Shown here: positions 4,448 to 13,377 of the stretch, one piece after another | How the letters are laid out: every line of letters begins with the position of its first letter | Numbering within the stretch: the first letter of the stretch is position 1 | Source of the DNA: a virus | Virus record (IMG/VR): IMGVR_UViG_3300037847_002334 | Span: 2,274 to 26,596 of that record | Reading direction: 5' to 3' (one strand) | Length of the DNA: 24,323 nucleotides | Made by a program: the position numbers and the translations under genes | Notes under the pieces: generated by a model | What the model saw: the letters and a program-made list of their open reading frames with translations, nothing else | What the model was told of the DNA's origin: nothing | Databases searched by the model: none

Positions 4448-4532
4448 TTTTATTCTCCTTATTAAAAATTCTATCCCAATTGTTATCTATTTTTTGTTTA
4501 TCTTCTGGTCTACGTTTAGATCCTTTACTCAT
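4413..4532 (-). CDS. Small conserved phage protein of the MSKGSKRRP type (39 aa)
   Basis: A 39-aa reading frame begins MSKGSKRRPEDKQKIDNNWD and continues RIF. As I recall, very small phage proteins of the form 'MSKGS.RRP...NWD.IF' recur in many phage genomes, usually next to replication genes; their function is unknown. The start codon overlaps the DNA polymerase stop as ATGA (4532-4529), and the end runs 35 nt into the HTH gene, in a different frame. That arrangement, typical of translational coupling, supports it being a real gene despite its size. The C-terminus is highly basic (ARNRRRSKK). Confidence 0.75.
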   Translation of the reverse strand: MSKGSKRRPEDKQKIDNNWDRIFNKENKNARNRRRSKKT

Positions 4533-6388
4533 TTAATTTCCCCCCAACTCTTTCCTATTTCCATATCTATTTCCATCGGCACTGATAAATTAACACAATT
4601 TATCATTGCTTCTTTTACTGTTTGTTTTTGTTCTTCTGTGCTTAAAGAAAAATCTAATTCATCGTGTACTTGTAATAATGGAATAATACCTTGTTTCCGT
4701 ACTTCTAACATAGCTAGTTTAGTCATATCTGCTGCTGAACCTTGTATTAATCTATTTAATGCTTTATATGTAAACGCTCTCTTTAACTCTGGTCCATATT
4801 TATCTAAAGCCTTTTCGATTGGTAGAGGCGATACTTCGTTATATGTACCGTTTGGTTCCCATAAGTCGAATCTTGCTTTTCTACCACCTAATGTTTTTAT
4901 ATACCCTCTATCAGATGCTAACTTAGTACAATAATCCATTAGTCCTTTTATAAAAGGTACTTTGGTATGGTACTGAGATAGTAATAAATTACCCTCCTCC
5001 TCGCTTACGCCTAGCTCGTTTATAAGCTTTTTTACACCCATCCCATAGGTAAGTCCTAGATTAATATTCTTAGCTTGTTTACGAGGTATATTAGCCATAT
5101 CTGCAACTATCTGATGGAAGTCAGCATTACCTTCTAAATAACTTCTAACCGCTTGGTCAGCTCCAGTCATCTTTAAACGACTAGCGTAATGCACTGTTAT
5201 TCTTGGTTCTTGTTGGCTATAATCAAAACAACACCACTCTTCACCATCGTCAGGTATAAATATTGATCGAATCATTGGACCGATCTCAGGGTCTCTTGCA
5301 GGCACTTGTTGTAAGTTTGGGTTTGAATAACTAAACCTACCTGTAACTGTGCCGCCTTTTTCTGAACGTGAACTATGAGCTTCTGCATGGATACGACCGT
5401 TTACTTCATGGTCAAATATCATCTTTTTAATAAACGTACCGCCAGCTTTGTTATATTTACGAGCACGAGCAATAGCTCTAGGTAAATCGTGTTCGTGGTT
5501 TTCTAACCAATTAGCTTGGAAACTCGGTGACCCTTTTTCTGTATAAGGGTAATATAAATTAATTTTATCAAAAGCTTGTTGTATTGATGCGTTAGCCCAT
5601 ATATCTACGTCTACTCCATACTCTCTTTTTATTTCTAACAAGATAGCTTGTTCTTTTACAGTTAAGTCCTTCATGGTCTTTTCTGCTTTTTCTAAATCTA
5701 CCCTAACCCCTTTCATCCTCATCTCAATAACTAGTCTTACAATATCCATCTCAGTTTGGAATACTTTGGTTAAGTTTTCTTCTTGTATTTTTTCTTTAAG
5801 TATTTTCCATAAATCTAAAGTAAGTGAGGCGTCTTGTTCTGCATAGATACCTACATACTTTGCAGGTAATTTCCACATATCCCCCTTATCTTTTAAACCA
5901 TATGCATTTAAAGCTTCATCTAATAAGTTTTCACTTTTTCTTTGATTACAATATTTTTCGCCTAAATTATCTAATGAGTAAGAAAATGAATGTTCATCTA
6001 GTAAAGGTGCAGCAATCAAAGTATCTACTATTTTACCGTTTACCGTAAAACCTTCTGAGGTTAACCAACCTAAATCATATGCAGCGTTATGAAAAACTTT
6101 AGTATTGTTAGATTCTAGTTGCTTTTTTAACCACCTATAAACTATATCTTTGTCTAGGTTACCTCCACCAAGATGAGAGAATGGAAGATAAGTTCTTCCA
6201 CCCTCCCACGCTACAGCAACACCAATAATTTCTCCATCTTTCCTAGCCCAACCTGAGCCCTTAGTTCTTAAATTTGGATCTCGAGTTTCTAAATCTATAC
6301 TGAATTCTTTACACTCAGTTAGATTAGGTAAACTTGCAGGCGGTGACCAAGAAGCGTTTGGATCAAACAGTGTTGTTTGTAGACTCAT
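4529..6388 (-). CDS. polA: Family A DNA polymerase with 3'-5' exonuclease (619 aa)
   Basis: This is the replicative DNA polymerase. The N-terminal proofreading domain keeps all acidic residues: DLET (Asp32, Glu34), NAAYD (Asn101, Asp105) and YAEQD (Tyr182, Asp186). The polymerase domain has motif A with Asp389 (CCFDYSQQEPR), motif B (RKQAKNINLGLTYG, Arg436, Lys440, Tyr448) and motif C (QVHDELD, His575, Asp576). The 5' nuclease domain of bacterial Pol I is absent, as in phage enzymes. The residue equivalent to E. coli Phe762 is Leu444; leucine here has been linked in marine virome studies to slower or more temperate replication styles. Its start codon shares one base with the stop of the 17-aa minigene (TAATG) and has no ribosome binding site of its own, so it is likely coupled to that minigene. 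Confidence 0.97.
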   Translation of the reverse strand: MSLQTTLFDPNASWSPPASLPNLTECKEFSIDLETRDPNLRTKGSGWARKDGEIIGVAVAWEGGRTYLPFSHLGGGNLDKDIVYRWLKKQLESNNTKVFHNAAYDLGWLTSEGFTVNGKIVDTLIAAPLLDEHSFSYSLDNLGEKYCNQRKSENLLDEALNAYGLKDKGDMWKLPAKYVGIYAEQDASLTLDLWKILKEKIQEENLTKVFQTEMDIVRLVIEMRMKGVRVDLEKAEKTMKDLTVKEQAILLEIKREYGVDVDIWANASIQQAFDKINLYYPYTEKGSPSFQANWLENHEHDLPRAIARARKYNKAGGTFIKKMIFDHEVNGRIHAEAHSSRSEKGGTVTGRFSYSNPNLQQVPARDPEIGPMIRSIFIPDDGEEWCCFDYSQQEPRITVHYASRLKMTGADQAVRSYLEGNADFHQIVADMANIPRKQAKNINLGLTYGMGVKKLINELGVSEEEGNLLLSQYHTKVPFIKGLMDYCTKLASDRGYIKTLGGRKARFDLWEPNGTYNEVSPLPIEKALDKYGPELKRAFTYKALNRLIQGSAADMTKLAMLEVRKQGIIPLLQVHDELDFSLSTEEQKQTVKEAMINCVNLSVPMEIDMEIGKSWGEIK

Positions 6389-6441
6389 TACTTTTTAGGT
6401 AATTGTTCTGGATCGAACCAACCACATGGATAATTAACCAT
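6388..6441 (-). CDS. Minigene, 17-aa PCGWFDP peptide
   Basis: An 18-codon frame encodes MVNYPCGWFDPEQLPKK. It starts inside the end of the DUF1599-like gene (8-nt overlap) and its stop shares a base with the DNA polymerase start (TAATG). The composition (Cys, Gly, Trp, Phe, two Pro) is unlike random AT-rich sequence and the joints on both sides are tight. It may be a real micropeptide, or a translational bridge that brings ribosomes to the polymerase, which has no Shine-Dalgarno. No function is known to me. It has no strong ribosome binding site itself. Confidence 0.5.
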   Translation of the reverse strand: MVNYPCGWFDPEQLPKK

Positions 6442-6763
6442 CTTTATCTACTACCTGATTAACTACTTCATCAGACATAAGGTCTAAACAATGCGACTCG
6501 ACTAGTAGTAAGTATTGTCTTAAATCACGTATATCGTCTAAGATACCTTCAGGTCTTTGATCTTGTAGAGCAGACTCAAAAACGTCGTAATTATTTTTCT
6601 TTACTTGGTTTTCTAACCTATCCCATTTACGTGCTAGCATCATAAAGGCTCCTATACCACCACGTTGTTTCCAACTAGTACCGTAAGACTTCTCAGCTTC
6701 TTTTAGTATTTCGACATCGCCCCACGCTAAGTCTTCTATTAATTTATAATTATTACCTGACAT
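6434..6763 (-). CDS. DUF1599 / nucleotide modification-associated domain 1-like protein (109 aa)
   Basis: The pattern YGTSWKQRGG (27-36), ARKWDRLEN (44-52) and DDIRDLRQYLLLVE (76-89) fits the small all-alpha family DUF1599, also called nucleotide modification-associated domain 1. This family resembles MazG-type NTP pyrophosphatases: a YG.SW motif, K..RL, then an acidic helix D...D. It recurs in phages beside thymidylate synthase and base-modification genes; its reaction is not established, but nucleotide handling is expected. A good ribosome binding site (AAAGGAG, 7 nt spacing) sits inside the end of the ThyA-family gene, from which it is separated by no bases. This assignment is from motif memory, not a profile search. 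Confidence 0.65.
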   Translation of the reverse strand: MSGNNYKLIEDLAWGDVEILKEAEKSYGTSWKQRGGIGAFMMLARKWDRLENQVKKNNYDVFESALQDQRPEGILDDIRDLRQYLLLVESHCLDLMSDEVVNQVVDKDG

Positions 6764-7756
6764 CTAACTTCTCCTTTGTAGATAATTTAAACAAGCGGTT
6801 TGCCAATCTTGTGATTCAATACTATTGGCTAACTGCAATGACTCTGTATATTTATTGTTTTTATAAGCGTCCCAAGATCTAACTACAGGAATAGCTACGT
6901 TTTCTAAAAAACTATTTTTGTAGCTATCTTTAAACGTTCTATCTAAAACTGTTACAACTTCTTTATCAAAAGATTCAGGATCTGTAACTAATGGTAACAA
7001 GTTCTTAGGATATGATTCTATGCTTCTATAACACGATAAACCTAACTCAACATCTATGTTAGAAACTTTATCTTTCCATATTGGGTAATCAACATAAATA
7101 TGTAAGTTATCTGTAAAATGATAATAAGACCCAACCTCGACACCTATCATTGCCGCCATATACTCATGCAACATACTAAAGTGTACTACGTTAGCTCCAA
7201 AGCAACCCCAAATTAAATCATTAGACCTATTAGTTACCGTCATACGTAAAGCACCGTCCCTAATCTTAAAATATATTTGGGTGTTACAAGGTACGTCTTT
7301 TCCTTTACCGTCTAAATGGTTTAGGTCTTGTTCTGTACCCCACATCTGTAAAACGCAACGCCTATCGTCTGGATTTCTTTTTAACATATTTATAATTAAT
7401 TTAATTTGATCTTTACCAAACATCCATCGCCACCTATAACCATAAGCGCCCCATAAACTTAAACCATCATCACTAAACTCCGACATACGTGGAACAAAAT
7501 ACTCCATAGTTTTTAAGTCACCTCTACCAGCAAGCATCCATAAACCTTCTGCTAAATGAAAAAAGGGATTACAATCTCTTGTTGAATCTAATAAAACTCT
7601 GTGGGTTGGGTTTATATACTTTATAGTAATTGGATCTTTAAGTTCCCAAACCCTTCCATTTCTACTTTCATACTCGATATAATTAACATCAGATCCAAAT
7701 AAATCTAAGCCTTTATAAAAAGCATCGTTTACATTAAACGCTGTTATTGTATGCAT
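6764..7756 (-). CDS. thyA: ThyA-family thymidylate synthase or dUMP hydroxymethylase (330 aa)
   Basis: The enzyme has the folate-dependent ThyA fold. Visible motifs are HLAEGLWMLAGRGD (Glu70), the paired Arg of DDRR (131-133), the nucleophilic Cys157 in DVPCN, NRSND (176-180), the Asn189 in GCFGAN, and FTDNLHIY (His219, Tyr221). Asn189 aligns with the residue that selects dUMP over dCMP, so dUMP is the likely substrate. Whether it makes dTMP or 5-hydroxymethyl-dUMP cannot be read from these motifs; the neighbouring hypermodification-like gene makes the second possibility serious. The frame opens earlier at a GTG (7813), but the ATG at 7756 has AAGGAG 5 nt upstream and shortens the overlap with the upstream gene to 23 nt, so I chose it. 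Confidence 0.88.
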   Translation of the reverse strand: MHTITAFNVNDAFYKGLDLFGSDVNYIEYESRNGRVWELKDPITIKYINPTHRVLLDSTRDCNPFFHLAEGLWMLAGRGDLKTMEYFVPRMSEFSDDGLSLWGAYGYRWRWMFGKDQIKLIINMLKRNPDDRRCVLQMWGTEQDLNHLDGKGKDVPCNTQIYFKIRDGALRMTVTNRSNDLIWGCFGANVVHFSMLHEYMAAMIGVEVGSYYHFTDNLHIYVDYPIWKDKVSNIDVELGLSCYRSIESYPKNLLPLVTDPESFDKEVVTVLDRTFKDSYKNSFLENVAIPVVRSWDAYKNNKYTESLQLANSIESQDWQTACLNYLQRRS

Positions 7757-8603
7757 ACTTACTCCTTGTTCTTCCTTCTCCTTTATAAATTCTTGAATAC
7801 TTATCAAACTCACATAAACCCCCTTCTATCTCTCTAAGCTCAAAAGGATGTCTATTAGAATTAAATATCATTGGGTGTAAACGCTCTTCACATATTTTAT
7901 AAAGCTCTTGCATTTCATTTACCCAATCATGTGTACGTCTTTTAAAATCTAAATCCCTACCTGTTAATCTATTGAGACCTCGCATGGCTCCTGGACCAGC
8001 ATTAGCCCATGTTAATCTATCTTCTGCGTCTCTTAAAAACATAGTAAAACTTAAATCGGTCACGACCTCATAAGCCATAAATGGACCTTGATATGGAAAC
8101 GTTTTTAAATATTCCCACATCTTTTCCATAGAGTTTTTTCTCTGATAAACTTCCTCAAGTATTTCGTCTTTCTTATACCACATATTGTTAATACATCTGA
8201 TAATACCTTGAAGCTTATCAAAACCATTAGGACTCTTAATTACGTACGCTCCTGTGATCCATTGATCTTGTTTTCTAATTTGTACATCTGCAATTAAAGG
8301 ATCCCAATCAGTTAACAAATCATATTTAACTAATGTTTCACCTGTTTGTATAAGATTAAACCACCTGAAGATAACTGTAGCCATAAATACTTCAGGAGAG
8401 TTTTCCATAGGGTTTCGTATATTATCTATATACCACCTACTTGTTCTGTCGTCGTTTCTAAATACTTGACAAAATTTATGCTCTCTTAAAATCTTATCGT
8501 AAGTCCAAGGAGGATCAAGTTGCTTTTCTTCTTTAGCAATCCTGATCCTTTCTCTTTCTTCTATCCAGTAAATATATCTATCGAGTTCCTCCTTGATAAA
8601 CAT
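7734..8603 (-). CDS. Thymine-hypermodification family protein (aGPT-PPlase / HMUDK-helical superfamily, 289 aa)
   Basis: The sequence matches the all-helical superfamily that includes the alpha-glutamyl/putrescinyl thymine pyrophosphorylases (amino acid:DNA transferases) and the helical domain of 5-hmdU DNA kinases. Blocks seen are FCQVFRNDDRTSRWY (44-58), FRWFN (79-83), GPFMAYEVVTDL (173-184), AGPGAMRGLNRLTG (202-215, resembling a helix-hairpin-helix), and LCEFDKYSR..KGEGR (263-278). Characterised members act on DNA carrying hydroxymethyl-dU, replacing the activated group with an amino acid or polyamine. No P-loop is present, so it is not a complete kinase. The clade is uncertain, and the family call comes from motif recall. 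It starts on the stop codon of the methyltransferase gene (TAATG) and overlaps the ThyA-family gene, so the three are co-translated. Confidence 0.75.
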   Translation of the reverse strand: MFIKEELDRYIYWIEERERIRIAKEEKQLDPPWTYDKILREHKFCQVFRNDDRTSRWYIDNIRNPMENSPEVFMATVIFRWFNLIQTGETLVKYDLLTDWDPLIADVQIRKQDQWITGAYVIKSPNGFDKLQGIIRCINNMWYKKDEILEEVYQRKNSMEKMWEYLKTFPYQGPFMAYEVVTDLSFTMFLRDAEDRLTWANAGPGAMRGLNRLTGRDLDFKRRTHDWVNEMQELYKICEERLHPMIFNSNRHPFELREIEGGLCEFDKYSRIYKGEGRTRSKYAYNNSV

Positions 8604-9442
8604 TACTTAGATAATCTCCAAAAACAATTATTAGAAGTTTCTGGATAAAAAGTCGCAGCAGCAACTCTCATAAATTGTCTACCAAACCTTTCTTCAAGCA
8701 TGTTAAGTTGTTCTGGTGTCCATATTTGTTTAGCTCTTTGTGCTACATTGAATTTACGCATCTGTGTAAAAACACCTACAACAGATTCTAATTTAAAATA
8801 CTTTTCTAAAAGGTCTTTTAGTTCTTGGAAACCCCACTCATAGATATGGTCTTCAGGTAATTTATCATTAGAACCATCGTGATTAGGTGTTGATATAAAC
8901 ACTGTTCCGCCTTTTTTAACTACCCTGCTTAACTCTGCAATCCAAGGCTCTACAGCTTCTCTAGGCATGTGTTCAATAACTTCTGTAGACCAAGCTACGT
9001 CAATAGATTCATTATTATGGGGTAGGGTAGGATCGACACTAACGTCTTTTAATTCTAAGGTAGCGTTAAAGTTTTTAATCCAAGTAGTATCGTCTAAATG
9101 ACCACCCTCTCCAGACCAATATTTAATTTCTTCAAAAGATGCAGGATCGATATCGTATCCATAATAAGATGAAATAACATCAGACTTTTTAACAACATAG
9201 GACTTATATAAAGTTCTAAGCACCCATACTTCTCCACAACCTATTTCTAATGTGTCTAAAGGTCTACCTTGACGTTTAGATTCATCTATTAAAAACGAGG
9301 CAATCTTCTCAAACCTAGACATATGGGCAATCTCGTCAGGTCTAAAGTTAGCGAATACACCTGCATGTGCAATATTCATACGAGTATTTTTACAATCGTT
9401 TGGATTTTGTTCAGCAGTTAATTTTTTTCTAATACTTGGCAT
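8603..9442 (-). CDS. Class I SAM-dependent methyltransferase (279 aa)
   Basis: A Rossmann-fold methyltransferase is shown by motif I LEIGCGE (65-71), YDID (96-99) at the end of strand 2, IDVAWSTEVIEHMP near residues 147-160, and KKGGTVFISTPN after it. This UbiE/SmtA-like (Methyltransf_11/23 type) core says little about the acceptor. No DPPY or NPPY motif of N6-adenine/N4-cytosine DNA methylases and no PCxQ of C5 enzymes is seen, so a small molecule, a modified base side group or another acceptor is more likely than plain DNA methylation. The start has AAGAAAGGAGAAACTT before the ATG and lies behind a weak promoter-like site (9464-9495). It heads the tightly overlapping group leading into the hypermodification-like and ThyA-family genes, implying a shared task. 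Confidence 0.85.
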   Translation of the reverse strand: MPSIRKKLTAEQNPNDCKNTRMNIAHAGVFANFRPDEIAHMSRFEKIASFLIDESKRQGRPLDTLEIGCGEVWVLRTLYKSYVVKKSDVISSYYGYDIDPASFEEIKYWSGEGGHLDDTTWIKNFNATLELKDVSVDPTLPHNNESIDVAWSTEVIEHMPREAVEPWIAELSRVVKKGGTVFISTPNHDGSNDKLPEDHIYEWGFQELKDLLEKYFKLESVVGVFTQMRKFNVAQRAKQIWTPEQLNMLEERFGRQFMRVAAATFYPETSNNCFWRLSK

Positions 9443-9498: not shown

Positions 9499-10992
9499 TT
9501 ACAAGTCGAAATACTTCCTTGATGTTGGCTCTATTAAATAAAGCCTCTTTTTTGCCCTTGTCATACCAACGTAAAACACTCTTGTTTCATCGTCAGGATC
9601 ACGTTGATAACTGTTAAATACTTTATGAGTCATATCCGTTAATAATATGACGTTATCAGCCTCTGCTCCTTTAGCAGCATGAATTGTAGATATACGTATA
9701 CGTGGTTGTTTTAAAACCTTCTCTCCACGCCTTAACATAGCTTGTAGGTAACTTCTCTCTGTTATTGATATCATATCTAAACAATCAAACCACTTTCCTC
9801 TAGGTAGTTCCCCTACTAAACCCTCTACATGCCTTCTATTTACTTTTAAGTCGCCCTCAAATAACTTTAATTGTTTTTTAGCTACTTTCTTTATATACCT
9901 TAAAAACGTACCGCATTCTTGCATAGTAAGTTCTTCATCGTTATTAAACTTCTCCCAATTACCTACAGCTTCTAATTTAATTCCAGCTATACTTTGGTTT
10001 CCTTTAACTTCAAAAAACCACCCCTCGTGTTTACAATGATCAATAATATTTTCTAACAAATAATTTGTTCTCCCTAAAACCAACCAAGTACCCTCGCTCA
10101 TATCGATATGTTCAAAACCTCTTTCCCAACTTACTAAACCCTCATCTTGTTTAGGGTTCCATGATTTAGCCACTCTTTTAGATAACCTACCTACTGTCTT
10201 TCTAGCTAGTTCGTGTACAGAAACAGGTATCCTATAACTTTGTTCTAGTACCTTTGCGTTCTTACAATTACTTATTAAATAATCAACATCAGCACCTGCC
10301 CACTTATAAATAGCTTGGTCGTCATCGCCTGCTACATAAACTTTTCTACTGCCTTCTATAATCTTTCTAACTACCGCCCACTGCAAAGGACTTAGATCTT
10401 GTGCTTCGTCTATAAATAAAGCATCTAGTTTCGGTGCATAACCTCTTTGTAAAAAGAAATCTAACATATCCGTGTAATCGTAAAGCCTTCTAGCTTTTTT
10501 ATATGCTTTGTAGCCTCGACTAAATCTATCAAGTGCATACCAATTTACTGCATCTTCTACTTCATGCCATAAATCCTCTAACGGTATCTTACGCATACGT
10601 GCTAAGTTATCTATAAACATAAGCCTATCGTCTTTAGTCATACTATAAATTGTTCCATCCTCTGTACTATGTGATCCTGTAAGCCTGACATTTAACTTAT
10701 CATTTAGTTCTATAAGATGTGTACGTTCAAATACATCTTCTTTGTTTAAACCTAGTTGATGAAAACTTAATGAATGTAATGTTTTAAAATACGGTAATTC
10801 TTTTTTAGAAAGAGAAAACTTTTGCATTGCTCTTTCCATACCTTCGTTTACAGCTCTTTTAGTAAACGTAAAGAAACCAATTTTATTTGGAGATACCCCA
10901 CTATCTAGTTCATCTTCTATTAGCTGTAACAACGTAGATGTTTTCCCTGTTCCTGGAGGTCCAAGGATCACCTGTGTTTTACTAGGTAACAT
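9499..10992 (-). CDS. UvrD-like superfamily 1 DNA helicase (497 aa)
   Basis: SF1A helicase motifs are complete and in order: Walker A GPPGTGKT (11-18), the Ia-like FFTFTKRAVNE, motif II IDEAQDLSPLQW (194-205), motif III GDDDQAIYKWAG (222-233), motif IV QSYR (251-254), motif V TIHAAKGAEADNVIL, and motif VI FYVGMTRAKKRLYL (473-486). This is an ATP-driven helicase expected to move 3'-5' and serve phage replication or repair. At 497 aa it is shorter than bacterial UvrD (about 720), suggesting reduced 1B/2B insertions as in other phage versions. The start overlaps the 58-aa gene by 11 nt and lacks a ribosome binding site, so translation is probably coupled. Confidence 0.94.
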   Translation of the reverse strand: MLPSKTQVILGPPGTGKTSTLLQLIEDELDSGVSPNKIGFFTFTKRAVNEGMERAMQKFSLSKKELPYFKTLHSLSFHQLGLNKEDVFERTHLIELNDKLNVRLTGSHSTEDGTIYSMTKDDRLMFIDNLARMRKIPLEDLWHEVEDAVNWYALDRFSRGYKAYKKARRLYDYTDMLDFFLQRGYAPKLDALFIDEAQDLSPLQWAVVRKIIEGSRKVYVAGDDDQAIYKWAGADVDYLISNCKNAKVLEQSYRIPVSVHELARKTVGRLSKRVAKSWNPKQDEGLVSWERGFEHIDMSEGTWLVLGRTNYLLENIIDHCKHEGWFFEVKGNQSIAGIKLEAVGNWEKFNNDEELTMQECGTFLRYIKKVAKKQLKLFEGDLKVNRRHVEGLVGELPRGKWFDCLDMISITERSYLQAMLRRGEKVLKQPRIRISTIHAAKGAEADNVILLTDMTHKVFNSYQRDPDDETRVFYVGMTRAKKRLYLIEPTSRKYFDL

Positions 10993-11159: not shown

Positions 11160-11744
11160 TTAAATACCTGTTCTAAAAGTTAAATTAATCCTGTCACCTA
11201 TAGGTGGTACAGTGTCTAAAATAGCATGGGTAGTATTCATCTGACTTTTACCGTCAAAGATTAAAACATCACCATCTTCTAATATAAATTGTTTTATAGA
11301 TTTAACGTTAAGCATAGCAGTATTAATGGTGCTAGTGTTACTTACCTTTTTTATATTCTTTTCGTAAGTTACCCATTCAAAAACTCTAGGTGATCCAAAA
11401 GATACAGATACTACCAAGTCTCTTTGTGTAGGTACTGTATCTGAATGATGGGGTATACCTTTTCCCTTTGTATCATAATAACCACACAACACAAAATTAA
11501 AATCAACTTCCCTTTTTAGTTCTCTTTTAACTAAGTTTTGTAAATTATCCCTAATATAAATAATAGGTTGTGTCCAAGGGTCTGGATCATAATTTTTACC
11601 TGCATAACTAAACTTTGTATTACCAAAAGCCCTAGTGGGTCTACCCATAACTTTCTTACCGTCGTACTCTCTTAGTTTAGGTGTGTCCCACTTTTCTATT
11701 AAAGGGCTATAACCCTTCATGCCTTCTTTTATAAATTTAATCAT
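11160..11744 (-). CDS. alkB: AlkB-like 2OG-Fe(II) dioxygenase (194 aa)
   Basis: The iron ligands of the AlkB family are visible: HSD (His100, Asp102) within the GIPHHSDTV strand and the distal His173 (TTHAI). The 2-oxoglutarate-binding arginine pattern RINLTFR (Arg185, Arg191) closely matches the RxNLTFR of E. coli AlkB. The GDVLIFDGKSQ strand matches the AlkB 'HGDVVVWGGESR' region. Such enzymes reverse 1-meA/3-meC damage in DNA or RNA by oxidative demethylation, and phage copies are usually taken as repair genes. Because a base-modification cluster lies 2 kb downstream in the same operon, oxidation of a modified base is an alternative, though unproven. The start overlaps the 35-aa gene by ATGA. 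Confidence 0.9.
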   Translation of the reverse strand: MIKFIKEGMKGYSPLIEKWDTPKLREYDGKKVMGRPTRAFGNTKFSYAGKNYDPDPWTQPIIYIRDNLQNLVKRELKREVDFNFVLCGYYDTKGKGIPHHSDTVPTQRDLVVSVSFGSPRVFEWVTYEKNIKKVSNTSTINTAMLNVKSIKQFILEDGDVLIFDGKSQMNTTHAILDTVPPIGDRINLTFRTGI

Positions 11745-11848
11745 TTTCTCTTTAGTCTTCTTGCAAACATTTTATCGGCTTGTCTTTGGAAAGACATTTC
11801 TATCCATTTATCCATGACTTTCCTAAACCACTGTCTAAGTTTACCCAT
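11741..11848 (-). CDS. Small basic amphipathic protein (35 aa)
   Basis: A 36-codon frame (MGKLRQWFRKVMDKWIEMSF...) lies exactly between primase and AlkB-like gene. Its ATG shares a base with the primase stop (TAATG), and its TGA overlaps the next start (ATGA). GGAGGAG lies upstream inside the primase gene. The peptide is strongly basic, with Trp/Phe/Met on one face, so it should form one amphipathic helix that could bind membrane, nucleic acid or a partner protein. I know of no named family. Tight joints on both sides and a good ribosome binding site support it. Confidence 0.65.
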   Translation of the reverse strand: MGKLRQWFRKVMDKWIEMSFQRQADKMFARRLKRK

Positions 11849-13377
11849 TAAATCTCCTCCTCTATATTAGTTATATCTTTTGGTATAGCAAATACTTCAG
11901 TCTGTGTTTTAAACTCAGGTACATACCATACATTTGTACCTTTACCTTTTATGTTAAAGAAATGAGAACCACCTCCCATCTGCCTTAATTTAGCGGTAAT
12001 TTTATTTCTAGCGTAATCTTTAAAACCATTTCTTGTTAAGTAGTCTACAAGATCGCTAACTCTAAAATAGGTTTTTTCTGCATCACTCCAAGGTTTATGA
12101 AGTAATATTTCATCCCTCTCTCTAGCAGGTCTTTCAGTGCAGAAAGTTTCTAATAATTCTTTAAAGTGTCCTTCATTAGATGCATCGTCTGGCATTTCTA
12201 TTACCGTTAGGTTATCTAATAGTTGTTGTATTAATTGCCTCCAAACGTTATCTTTAACCTTTGGTGGAATAATATTTAGTGCATCCATACACTTTCTTTG
12301 AAATCTATTTTGATTTAATAAGTCGTCCGTTTCTAATTCTAATCTACCCCCCTCAACGTCTAAGAACCATATAGGTGGTTCACTGTTTTGTTTTGTTAAA
12401 TTACTAAATTGTGGTGTACCTCCAGATGAACCTATACCGTATTTTCTTGTTCTACATACAGTTGAATTACAATGTCCTGCTATAGGTTGGTCATTACATC
12501 TATAAAAGTAATCTTTCTTTTGTACTTGTTTGATAATCGTAAGAACTTCTTGTGCCACTAAAGGTGGTGACATATAGTTCATATTTACTTGTTCTAGTCT
12601 TTGCTCCCAATCGTCCTCGTATTTCTTTCTAAGGAAAACACCAACATTAAATAAACCAGAGTTACGTGTACCTTTAGGAAAACCTTGTGTAATTAAATGT
12701 TGTAAACACGGTGGTGCTTGATCTAACCACTCAACGTCTTCAGATACCTCAACTGTATACTCTTCTAATTCTTTAGATGTAATTGTTTTTTCGTTAGCAT
12801 ACTCAATAAACTCTTCTGGAGTTAGAGCTATACCTGATTTACTAAAAGCATATCTAGTTGTATCCTCTCCTCCAAAATAAGGCATATTTAAAGCGCTACC
12901 TTTATCGCCCCTCTCAATGAGTAATTTTGTTTGTTTAGGAAATATTTCAGCCTGTCCAAAACCTAGACAAGCTGCAATATCTTTGAGCTTTTTCTGCATA
13001 AGTGCTGCAGGAACAGGGTCAAACACAAATAAATATATATGTGCCCCACCACTTTTACTCCGACAAAGAATTAAAGGAAGCTTTAGCTGATGTAACTTTT
13101 TCGCTAGCTTCTTTAAATCTAGCGTAAAGTCATCAACATCTATAGCGCCCCAATGACAGCAATTATTTTCATCTATAGGTACAATACCTATAGAGGTCTT
13201 ACCGTCGAGGTGCTGTTGCCAAAGCTCCTTTAGTCTATTTTCGGTTAGTTGTTCTGATACAGTAACAACACTACCACCTACTTTACCGTCGTCTCTTAAA
13301 TCAGACGATTGAGTAAATTTTCCATAAGCCTGTTTAAGCCCAGCAAAGATCCTTGCGTAATCTCTTGCTAGTGGCAT
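11848..13377 (-). CDS. AEP-superfamily primase, TOTE type (509 aa)
   Basis: The N-terminal half is an archaeo-eukaryotic primase of the type described in TOTE conflict systems. It has GAIDVDD (Asp80, Asp82/83) as the metal-binding pair, CRSKSGGAHIYLF (107-117, His113) as the SxGxH motif, and EIFPKQ (144-149). These enzymes make primers, and some also extend DNA (PrimPol). The C-terminal region has PCL (Cys224) and C-x8-C-x4-C (Cys294, 303, 308), which may bind zinc or an iron-sulphur cluster as in PriL; this is inference. The last third looks like a helical DNA-binding region. No helicase domain is fused, in contrast to T7 gp4, so the separate SF1 and SNF2 helicases probably supply unwinding. 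It follows the ssDNA-binding-like gene by 3 nt. Confidence 0.88.
   Translation of the reverse strand: MPLARDYARIFAGLKQAYGKFTQSSDLRDDGKVGGSVVTVSEQLTENRLKELWQQHLDGKTSIGIVPIDENNCCHWGAIDVDDFTLDLKKLAKKLHQLKLPLILCRSKSGGAHIYLFVFDPVPAALMQKKLKDIAACLGFGQAEIFPKQTKLLIERGDKGSALNMPYFGGEDTTRYAFSKSGIALTPEEFIEYANEKTITSKELEEYTVEVSEDVEWLDQAPPCLQHLITQGFPKGTRNSGLFNVGVFLRKKYEDDWEQRLEQVNMNYMSPPLVAQEVLTIIKQVQKKDYFYRCNDQPIAGHCNSTVCRTRKYGIGSSGGTPQFSNLTKQNSEPPIWFLDVEGGRLELETDDLLNQNRFQRKCMDALNIIPPKVKDNVWRQLIQQLLDNLTVIEMPDDASNEGHFKELLETFCTERPARERDEILLHKPWSDAEKTYFRVSDLVDYLTRNGFKDYARNKITAKLRQMGGGSHFFNIKGKGTNVWYVPEFKTQTEVFAIPKDITNIEEEI

Follow-up and report, generated by a model that had tools for sequence, protein, structure and literature searches.

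Hypermodification of thymidine in phage DNA canonically requires a kinase first and amino-acid transfer thereafter, with pyridoxal phosphate (PLP), radical S-adenosylmethionine (SAM), flavin adenine dinucleotide (FAD) lyase and acetyltransferase enzymes serving in tailoring. In the M6/PaMx11-type phages (M6, Ab18 and PaMx11 of the Mesyanzhinovviridae; also cyanophage Pam3), the genes for an HMUDK_hel protein and a dUMP hydroxymethylase lie close together near PolA, the family A DNA polymerase. The same pair occurs in a four-gene cassette of a marine phage, IMG/VR record IMGVR_UViG_3300037847_002334, a linear fragment of 26.6 kb of which positions 2,274 to 26,596 (24,323 nucleotides; "the window") were analysed. 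The four genes encode a methyltransferase (MTase), an HMUDK_hel protein, a ThyA-like enzyme and a conserved protein of 109 amino acids (Table 1). Hydroxymethyluracil very probably replaces thymine in the DNA of this phage and many relatives. Tentatively, we favor a reading in which a SAM-dependent methyltransferase of this 5-hydroxymethyluracil cassette replaces the kinase/amino-acid branch, and caps the 5-hydroxymethyl-2'-deoxyuridine (5-hmdU) presented by HMUDK_hel.

The Mesyanzhinovviridae proteins are 35-43% identical to those of the marine cassette, and Pam3 also has a homolog of the 109-residue protein. M6/PaMx11-type clusters additionally contain a P-loop 5-hmdU kinase, an amino acid:DNA transferase (ADDT) and tailoring enzymes, none of which was detected in the marine cassette. 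Directly before HMUDK_hel in Ab18, PaMx11, M6 and Pam3 is the gene of a P-loop protein, which in Ab18, PaMx11 and M6 carries the annotation terminase small subunit; this position of the 5-hmdU DNA kinase, immediately upstream of HMUDK_hel, is taken by the methyltransferase in the marine cassette. The kinase family PF18748 is matched by the P-loop proteins of M6 and Pam3 and by Vi01_061c (386 bits), and the ADDT family PF18724 was detected in M6, Ab18 and Pam3. The "terminase small subunit" proteins NC_007809.1 gp054 (locus L003:5339-5902), NC_026594.1 ORF12 (L002:5348-5917) and Vi01_061c (L220:215-877) are P-loop kinases, and the label looks like a misannotation that has spread.

A second known system is closer in lineage. 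The source phage, known here from its genes alone, is assigned to the HTVC023P type because its PolA is closest to those of 023Pt_psg01 (53% identity), DSL-LC04, HTVC023P (48%) and HTVC027P (47%). PMC9599517 describes ThyA and aG/PT-PPlase1 near PolA in HTVC023P-type pelagiphages of clades V, VIII and IX, and links them to M6-like phages. Very probably this is the marine cassette's own pair, in the same lineage and likewise near PolA, so the pair is not new, and to that extent the novelty claimed for a compact cassette in a sequence-only reading of this DNA falls away. The available part of that paper reports the pair alone and mentions neither the lack of kinase and transferase nor the constant methyltransferase nor the 109-residue protein; no report was found of this remainder, i.e., a constant methyltransferase and 109-residue gene with no kinase or ADDT detected.

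The firmest single prediction concerns the ThyA-like enzyme, which its sequence strongly suggests is a dUMP 5-hydroxymethylase. It matches Thymidylat_synt in Pfam (77.8 bits, 9.5e-22) and phrog_5131 (359 bits), and its top match in the PDB is MilA, a CMP 5-hydroxymethylase (7.6e-23). Equivalents of C146, R21, R126, R127 and R166 (the catalytic cysteine and phosphate-binding arginines, in E. coli numbering) are retained, and the uracil-type Asn (E. coli N177) is present here and in the marine homologs. A KDxPCN motif places D at E. coli L143 and N at H147, and the thymidylate synthase tryptophans are gone, with F at W83 and W80 absent. This pattern of Asn, KDxPCN and W80/W83 loss is common to the enzymes of M6, Ab18, CampHawk (SPO1-like) and Vi01. 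In a maximum-likelihood (ML) tree, whose thin outgroup includes a single dTMP synthase (E. coli), the enzyme groups with marine and M6/PaMx11/RHph_I72 enzymes with support of 92.9/97; it thus falls with hydroxymethylases and not with the E. coli synthase, as the sequence-only reading of a 5-hmdU-making cassette anticipated.

The four open reading frames (ORFs) are intact, with zero internal stops, and are joined just as that reading described: the methyltransferase and HMUDK_hel genes share 1 nucleotide in TAATG, the HMUDK_hel and ThyA-like genes overlap by 23 nucleotides (7734-7756), and 0 nucleotides separate the ThyA-like gene from that of the 109-residue protein. The ThyA-like enzyme starts at the ATG at 7756, as in its homologs, the GTG at 7813 chosen by the ORF finder being an upstream extension. 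Marine loci were gathered in two partly overlapping sets. In those fetched with the methyltransferase, the order helicase-MTase-HMUDK_hel-ThyA-109aa-PolA is found wherever the sequence extends. Loci fetched by HMUDK_hel alignment (the best 80 of at least 590 IMG/VR relatives, with more distant marine contexts outside the sample) have the same order, and the methyltransferase is the recognised upstream gene in each that has upstream sequence. About 130 marine loci thus show MTase-HMUDK_hel-ThyA-109aa-PolA with zero exceptions; in L034 small ORFs separate the methyltransferase from HMUDK_hel, and L126 starts just before HMUDK_hel, hence no upstream gene is visible. Because this order returns in every stretch long enough to show it, the four-gene arrangement is far beyond chance.

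The 109-residue gene lies downstream of ThyA in all loci reaching that far. Its product had been called DUF1599-like, a label not borne out, as PF07659 gave no match either in an hmmscan of 25 members of the protein's own family or in a whole-record search. The protein has no significant Pfam match, the sole hint being a spurious one to Cucumo_coat. It is similar to Pam3_54, annotated "nucleotide modification" (47% identity over 76%; hhalign 1.6e-38), in the thymidine-hypermodification cluster of Pam3 (aGPT2-kinase-aGPT1-Nmad5-ThyA-5'-deoxynucleotidase-Pam3_54-DnaA-PolA), and because of this homolog it belongs with this cassette type. It would be an accessory protein.

The methyltransferase matches Methyltransf_23 in Pfam (43 bits, 5e-11), with motif I as LEIGCGE, and alignment of the family shows E66, GCG 68-70, DID 97-99 and STPNHDGSN 184-192 to be invariant. 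Its structural model (mean predicted local distance difference test, pLDDT, 80) has the class I methyltransferase fold, with VIA matches to class I enzymes at Z 14-17. Among viral contigs there are 57 close relatives. A plasmid search gave no match, and bacterial genomes gave three weak partial matches and one contig of a metagenome-assembled genome (MAG) at 94% identity; the latter, NZMJ01000039.1 (5.2 kb, labelled Maricaulis MAG), is probably phage DNA that was binned with a bacterial MAG. As a constant partner in the cassette, the methyltransferase is probably its decorating enzyme.

Homologs of this methyltransferase adjoin a ThyA-family hydroxymethylase in the AXL3-type phages as well (Stenotrophomonas phage AXL3, Pseudoxanthomonas phage PW916 and two Manatee Spring phages). 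They score 71-76 bits against the marine profile (UbiG control, 11), and the homology reaches the C-terminus. The AXL3-type hydroxymethylase has the cytosine-type Asp, whereas the marine enzyme has Asn, and its clusters contain NTP pyrophosphohydrolase, dTMP-kinase-like and dCMP deaminase genes and lack HMUDK_hel. When viral contigs were scanned with the AXL3 protein, a dCMP-hydroxymethylase-like gene was nearby in 21 of 22 loci, the remaining locus ending too soon. The phages collection has 174 records with HMUDK_hel and five with the methyltransferase, and a search found HMUDK_hel in none of the four distinct methyltransferase-bearing phages. One methyltransferase family is therefore found beside a hydroxymethylase in two distant phage groups with different predicted hydroxymethyl bases. 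Taken together, the two groups would be explained most simply by a methyltransferase that caps a 5-hydroxymethyl pyrimidine. The AXL3-type cluster is conserved (L097, AXL3; L096, PW916; L094, L095 and L098-L119), which suggests a hydroxymethylcytosine-derived base. Of 37 restriction enzymes, 35 fail to cut AXL3 DNA, and the two that do cut it have A/T-only sites (PMC7504290), a pattern consistent with modified cytosine.

The AXL3-type phages bear on both sides of the alternative that survives best, though it is unlikely: plain 5-hmdU in DNA, with a methyltransferase that is only co-regulated and targets an ordinary DNA base, tRNA, protein or small molecule. The fold class is very broad, with no characterised close relative, and the AXL3-type partner enzyme makes a different base, therefore a common non-pyrimidine target is conceivable. 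Against it stand the unbroken adjacency and overlap with HMUDK_hel across the marine loci and the fact that another, distant group of phages also has the methyltransferase next to hydroxymethylases.

HMUDK_hel matches PF18723 (HMUDK_hel/aGPT-PPlase1) with 151.6 bits (3.8e-44; curated cutoff 25), bearing out its earlier placement in the thymine-pyrophosphorylase/HMUDK superfamily, and is 40-43% identical to the PaMx11/Ab18/Epa5 homologs. With its AlphaFold model (pLDDT 93), VIA-align places PaMx11 gp46/PUGT, a 5-PmdU glycinyltransferase (8z2n), first (Z 11.4, 3.8 A over 217 residues), followed by the queuine salvage enzyme DUF2419 and then helix-hairpin-helix DNA glycosylases (Z 7-10). The model points, with moderate confidence, to an all-helical fold, related to that of glycosylases, which HMUDK_hel has in common with the amino acid:DNA transferase; confidence is no higher because Foldseek alone found nothing with E below 0.001 and helical folds reach middling Z by chance. 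Sequence-profile comparison of HMUDK_hel with ADDT gives no match, and an ADDT function assigned by sequence was dropped on that ground.

A PF18748 kinase was likewise not detected in LuckyBarnes (Brevibacterium), Neferthena (Microbacterium) and the IMG/VR record behind L202, which combine HMUDK_hel with a hydroxymethylase-like ThyA and in which the decorating enzyme is a TAGT glycosyltransferase, in contrast to the methyltransferase of the marine cassette. HMUDK_hel with TAGT and no detected kinase, at L202:1170-2081 and 4968-5939 and at L091:2315-4777, suggests a sugar-decorated hydroxymethyluracil. Because the Neferthena ThyA-like protein (L090:5220-6086) groups with the T4 dCMP hydroxymethylase in the ML tree, with HMUDK_hel and TAGT nearby, HMUDK_hel may extend beyond uracil. 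These kinase-less associations with ThyA and TAGT glycosyltransferases are the reason that a general base-recognition role appears to fit HMUDK_hel better than a kinase-specific one.

That HMUDK_hel itself attaches an amino acid or amine to 5-hmdU without a dedicated kinase, the methyltransferase then methylating that group, is quite unlikely. The glycinyltransferase as best fold match, the family name aGPT-PPlase1 and the invariant residues that the alignment shows to be kept across kinase- and methyltransferase-partnered versions are in its favor. Known transferases, however, require a phosphorylated base and no kinase was found, and similarity to ADDT is not detectable in sequence. HMUDK_hel moreover occurs alongside ADDT in M6, Ab18, RHph_I72 and Pam3, and elsewhere alongside glycosyltransferases, a coexistence that suggests a different job for it.

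Profile searches found the 5-hmdU DNA kinase PF18748 in 0/19 marine records (all but one above 40 kb) and in 4/4 references (M6, Ab18, P26218 and RHph_I72), with identical counts for ADDT PF18724; a protein search with the Ab18 kinase gave no match in 18 marine records. Two relatives, G001 (60.7 kb) and G004 (58.4 kb), are taken as closed circles because about 98 bases are common to both ends. A Walker A scan of these revealed no kinase motif, the single convincing Walker A being that of the UvrD helicase, and three more records of 56-68 kb were likewise without a kinase. Among 64 ORFs of G001 (a set leaving out ORFs under 95 residues or cut at piece borders), Pfam found no kinase, PLP, radical-SAM, FAD or acetyltransferase family. 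Walker-like motifs near PolA in L177, L182 and L191 belong to DUF932 proteins, not kinases. Viral-contig queries with the Ab18 and LuckyBarnes HMUDK_hel proteins returned two loci each, too few for kinase-side statistics. Since neither the Ab18-kinase search nor PF18748 nor the Walker A scan revealed one, a kinase gene elsewhere than in the cassette was rejected; the sequence-only reading had allowed for such a gene in the rest of the genome, an option that the two closed relatives and further marine records contradict, the source record being itself a 26.6-kb fragment. Of that reading's proposal of 5-hmdU or a derivative, perhaps methylated, the 5-hmdU cassette stands and the methyltransferase has risen from a possibility to a constant partner, while the amino-acid route of the phiW-14/ViI/M6 type is unlikely because ADDT is missing in addition to the kinase.

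Canonical hypermodification, with a kinase and transferase that are diverged, supplied by the host or undetected, is accordingly very improbable. It has in its favor that canonical clusters too have HMUDK_hel, the hydroxymethylase, the Pam3_54-type protein and synteny with PolA, and that PF18748 is an imperfect detector (the Ab18 kinase, clearly P-loop, scores just 15 bits). Opposed to it are three independent negative kinase searches, the absence of ADDT and a closed genome, G001, without the tailoring families. Hardly credible at all is an ordinary dTMP synthase raising the thymidine supply of a phage with unmodified DNA: both Pfam and NCBIfam call the enzyme thymidylate synthase, but its scores are far below all NCBIfam equivalog cutoffs for that enzyme, and the lost tryptophans, KDxPCN and grouping with 5-hmdU-phage enzymes oppose it.

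In the favored reading, methylation of 5-hmdU in place of the kinase/amino-acid branch, the ThyA-like enzyme would convert dUMP to 5-hmdUMP, the best supported step, for incorporation into phage DNA. HMUDK_hel, judging from its DNA-glycosylase fold and its contexts, may bind or flip 5-hmdU in DNA. The overlapping methyltransferase would then methylate 5-hmdU, most simply at the 5-hydroxymethyl oxygen to give 5-(methoxymethyl)-2'-deoxyuridine; in marine phages with HMUDK_hel this may occur on DNA. PolA would have to work with a modified dNTP pool, and the modification would shield phage DNA against nucleases. It is possible, if doubtful, that the methyltransferase and HMUDK_hel make 5-(methoxymethyl)-2'-deoxyuridine in the DNA of these marine phages and that AXL3-type relatives make the cytosine counterpart. 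We know of no report of this nucleoside as a DNA base, and a literature search, far from complete, found no relevant paper on a methoxymethyl pyrimidine in DNA.

Several points weigh against methylation of 5-hmdU. The best VIA matches of the methyltransferase are CmoM structures (Z 16.6 and 16.2), and CmoM is an O-methyltransferase acting on the uridine C5 side chain, a likeness that would favor such methylation but is just suggestive, because METTL6 and others are tied within 1 Z; hundreds of enzymes have this fold. The nearest solved fold to HMUDK_hel is that of an amino-acid transferase, and we know of no experimentally established HMUDK_hel activity. Since PF18748 is imperfect, an undetected kinase, or one of unknown fold, is possible. 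G001 has MazG only and no recognised dTTPase or dTMP-kinase-like gene, which leaves the exclusion of T unexplained. The resistance of AXL3 DNA could stem from bare hydroxymethylcytosine or another gene.

The cassette occupies the helicase-PolA interval of the source phage, which in the cassette-less 023Pt_psg01 and HTVC023P contains just short ORFs; inspection of the PolA neighborhoods of HTVC023P and HTVC027P revealed no cassette. Upstream of the helicase, the TOTE-type primase gene is kept in relatives, and the AlkB-like oxygenase gene is found in many relatives, though not all.

Table 1. Cassette genes and neighboring genes in the window.
Feature	Coordinates	Strand	Length or evidence
Class I SAM-dependent methyltransferase, phage-restricted family	8603..9442	-	279 aa; Methyltransf_23
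HMUDK_hel / aGPT-PPlase clade 1 protein, all-helical fold probably related to DNA glycosylases	7734..8603	-	289 aa; PF18723
ThyA-family enzyme, predicted dUMP 5-hydroxymethylase	6764..7756	-	330 aa from ATG; phrog_5131, MilA match
Conserved 109-aa protein, Pam3_54-type "nucleotide modification" homolog	6434..6763	-	similarity to Pam3_54
Family A DNA polymerase (3'-5' exonuclease + polymerase), downstream neighbor	4529..6388	-	PF00476 1.7e-60, DNA_pol_A_exo1 1.5e-12
UvrD-type helicase, upstream border of the cassette	9499..10992	-	PF00580 1.5e-30
AlkB-like 2-oxoglutarate-Fe(II) oxygenase, just upstream of the helicase region	11160-11744	-	PF13532
Primase with TOTE-type archaeo-eukaryotic primase domain	11848-13377	-	PF22548

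The range of HMUDK_hel partners, which includes kinases, glycosyltransferases and a methyltransferase, sets this protein apart from kinase function. The lineage is common in the sea, and IMG/VR contains at least 590 HMUDK_hel relatives. For the predicted base a definite mass can be stated, and a cultivated phage with a related methyltransferase, AXL3, already shows unexplained restriction resistance. If the proposal is true, methylation would join amino acids and sugars as a third kind of 5-hmdU decoration.

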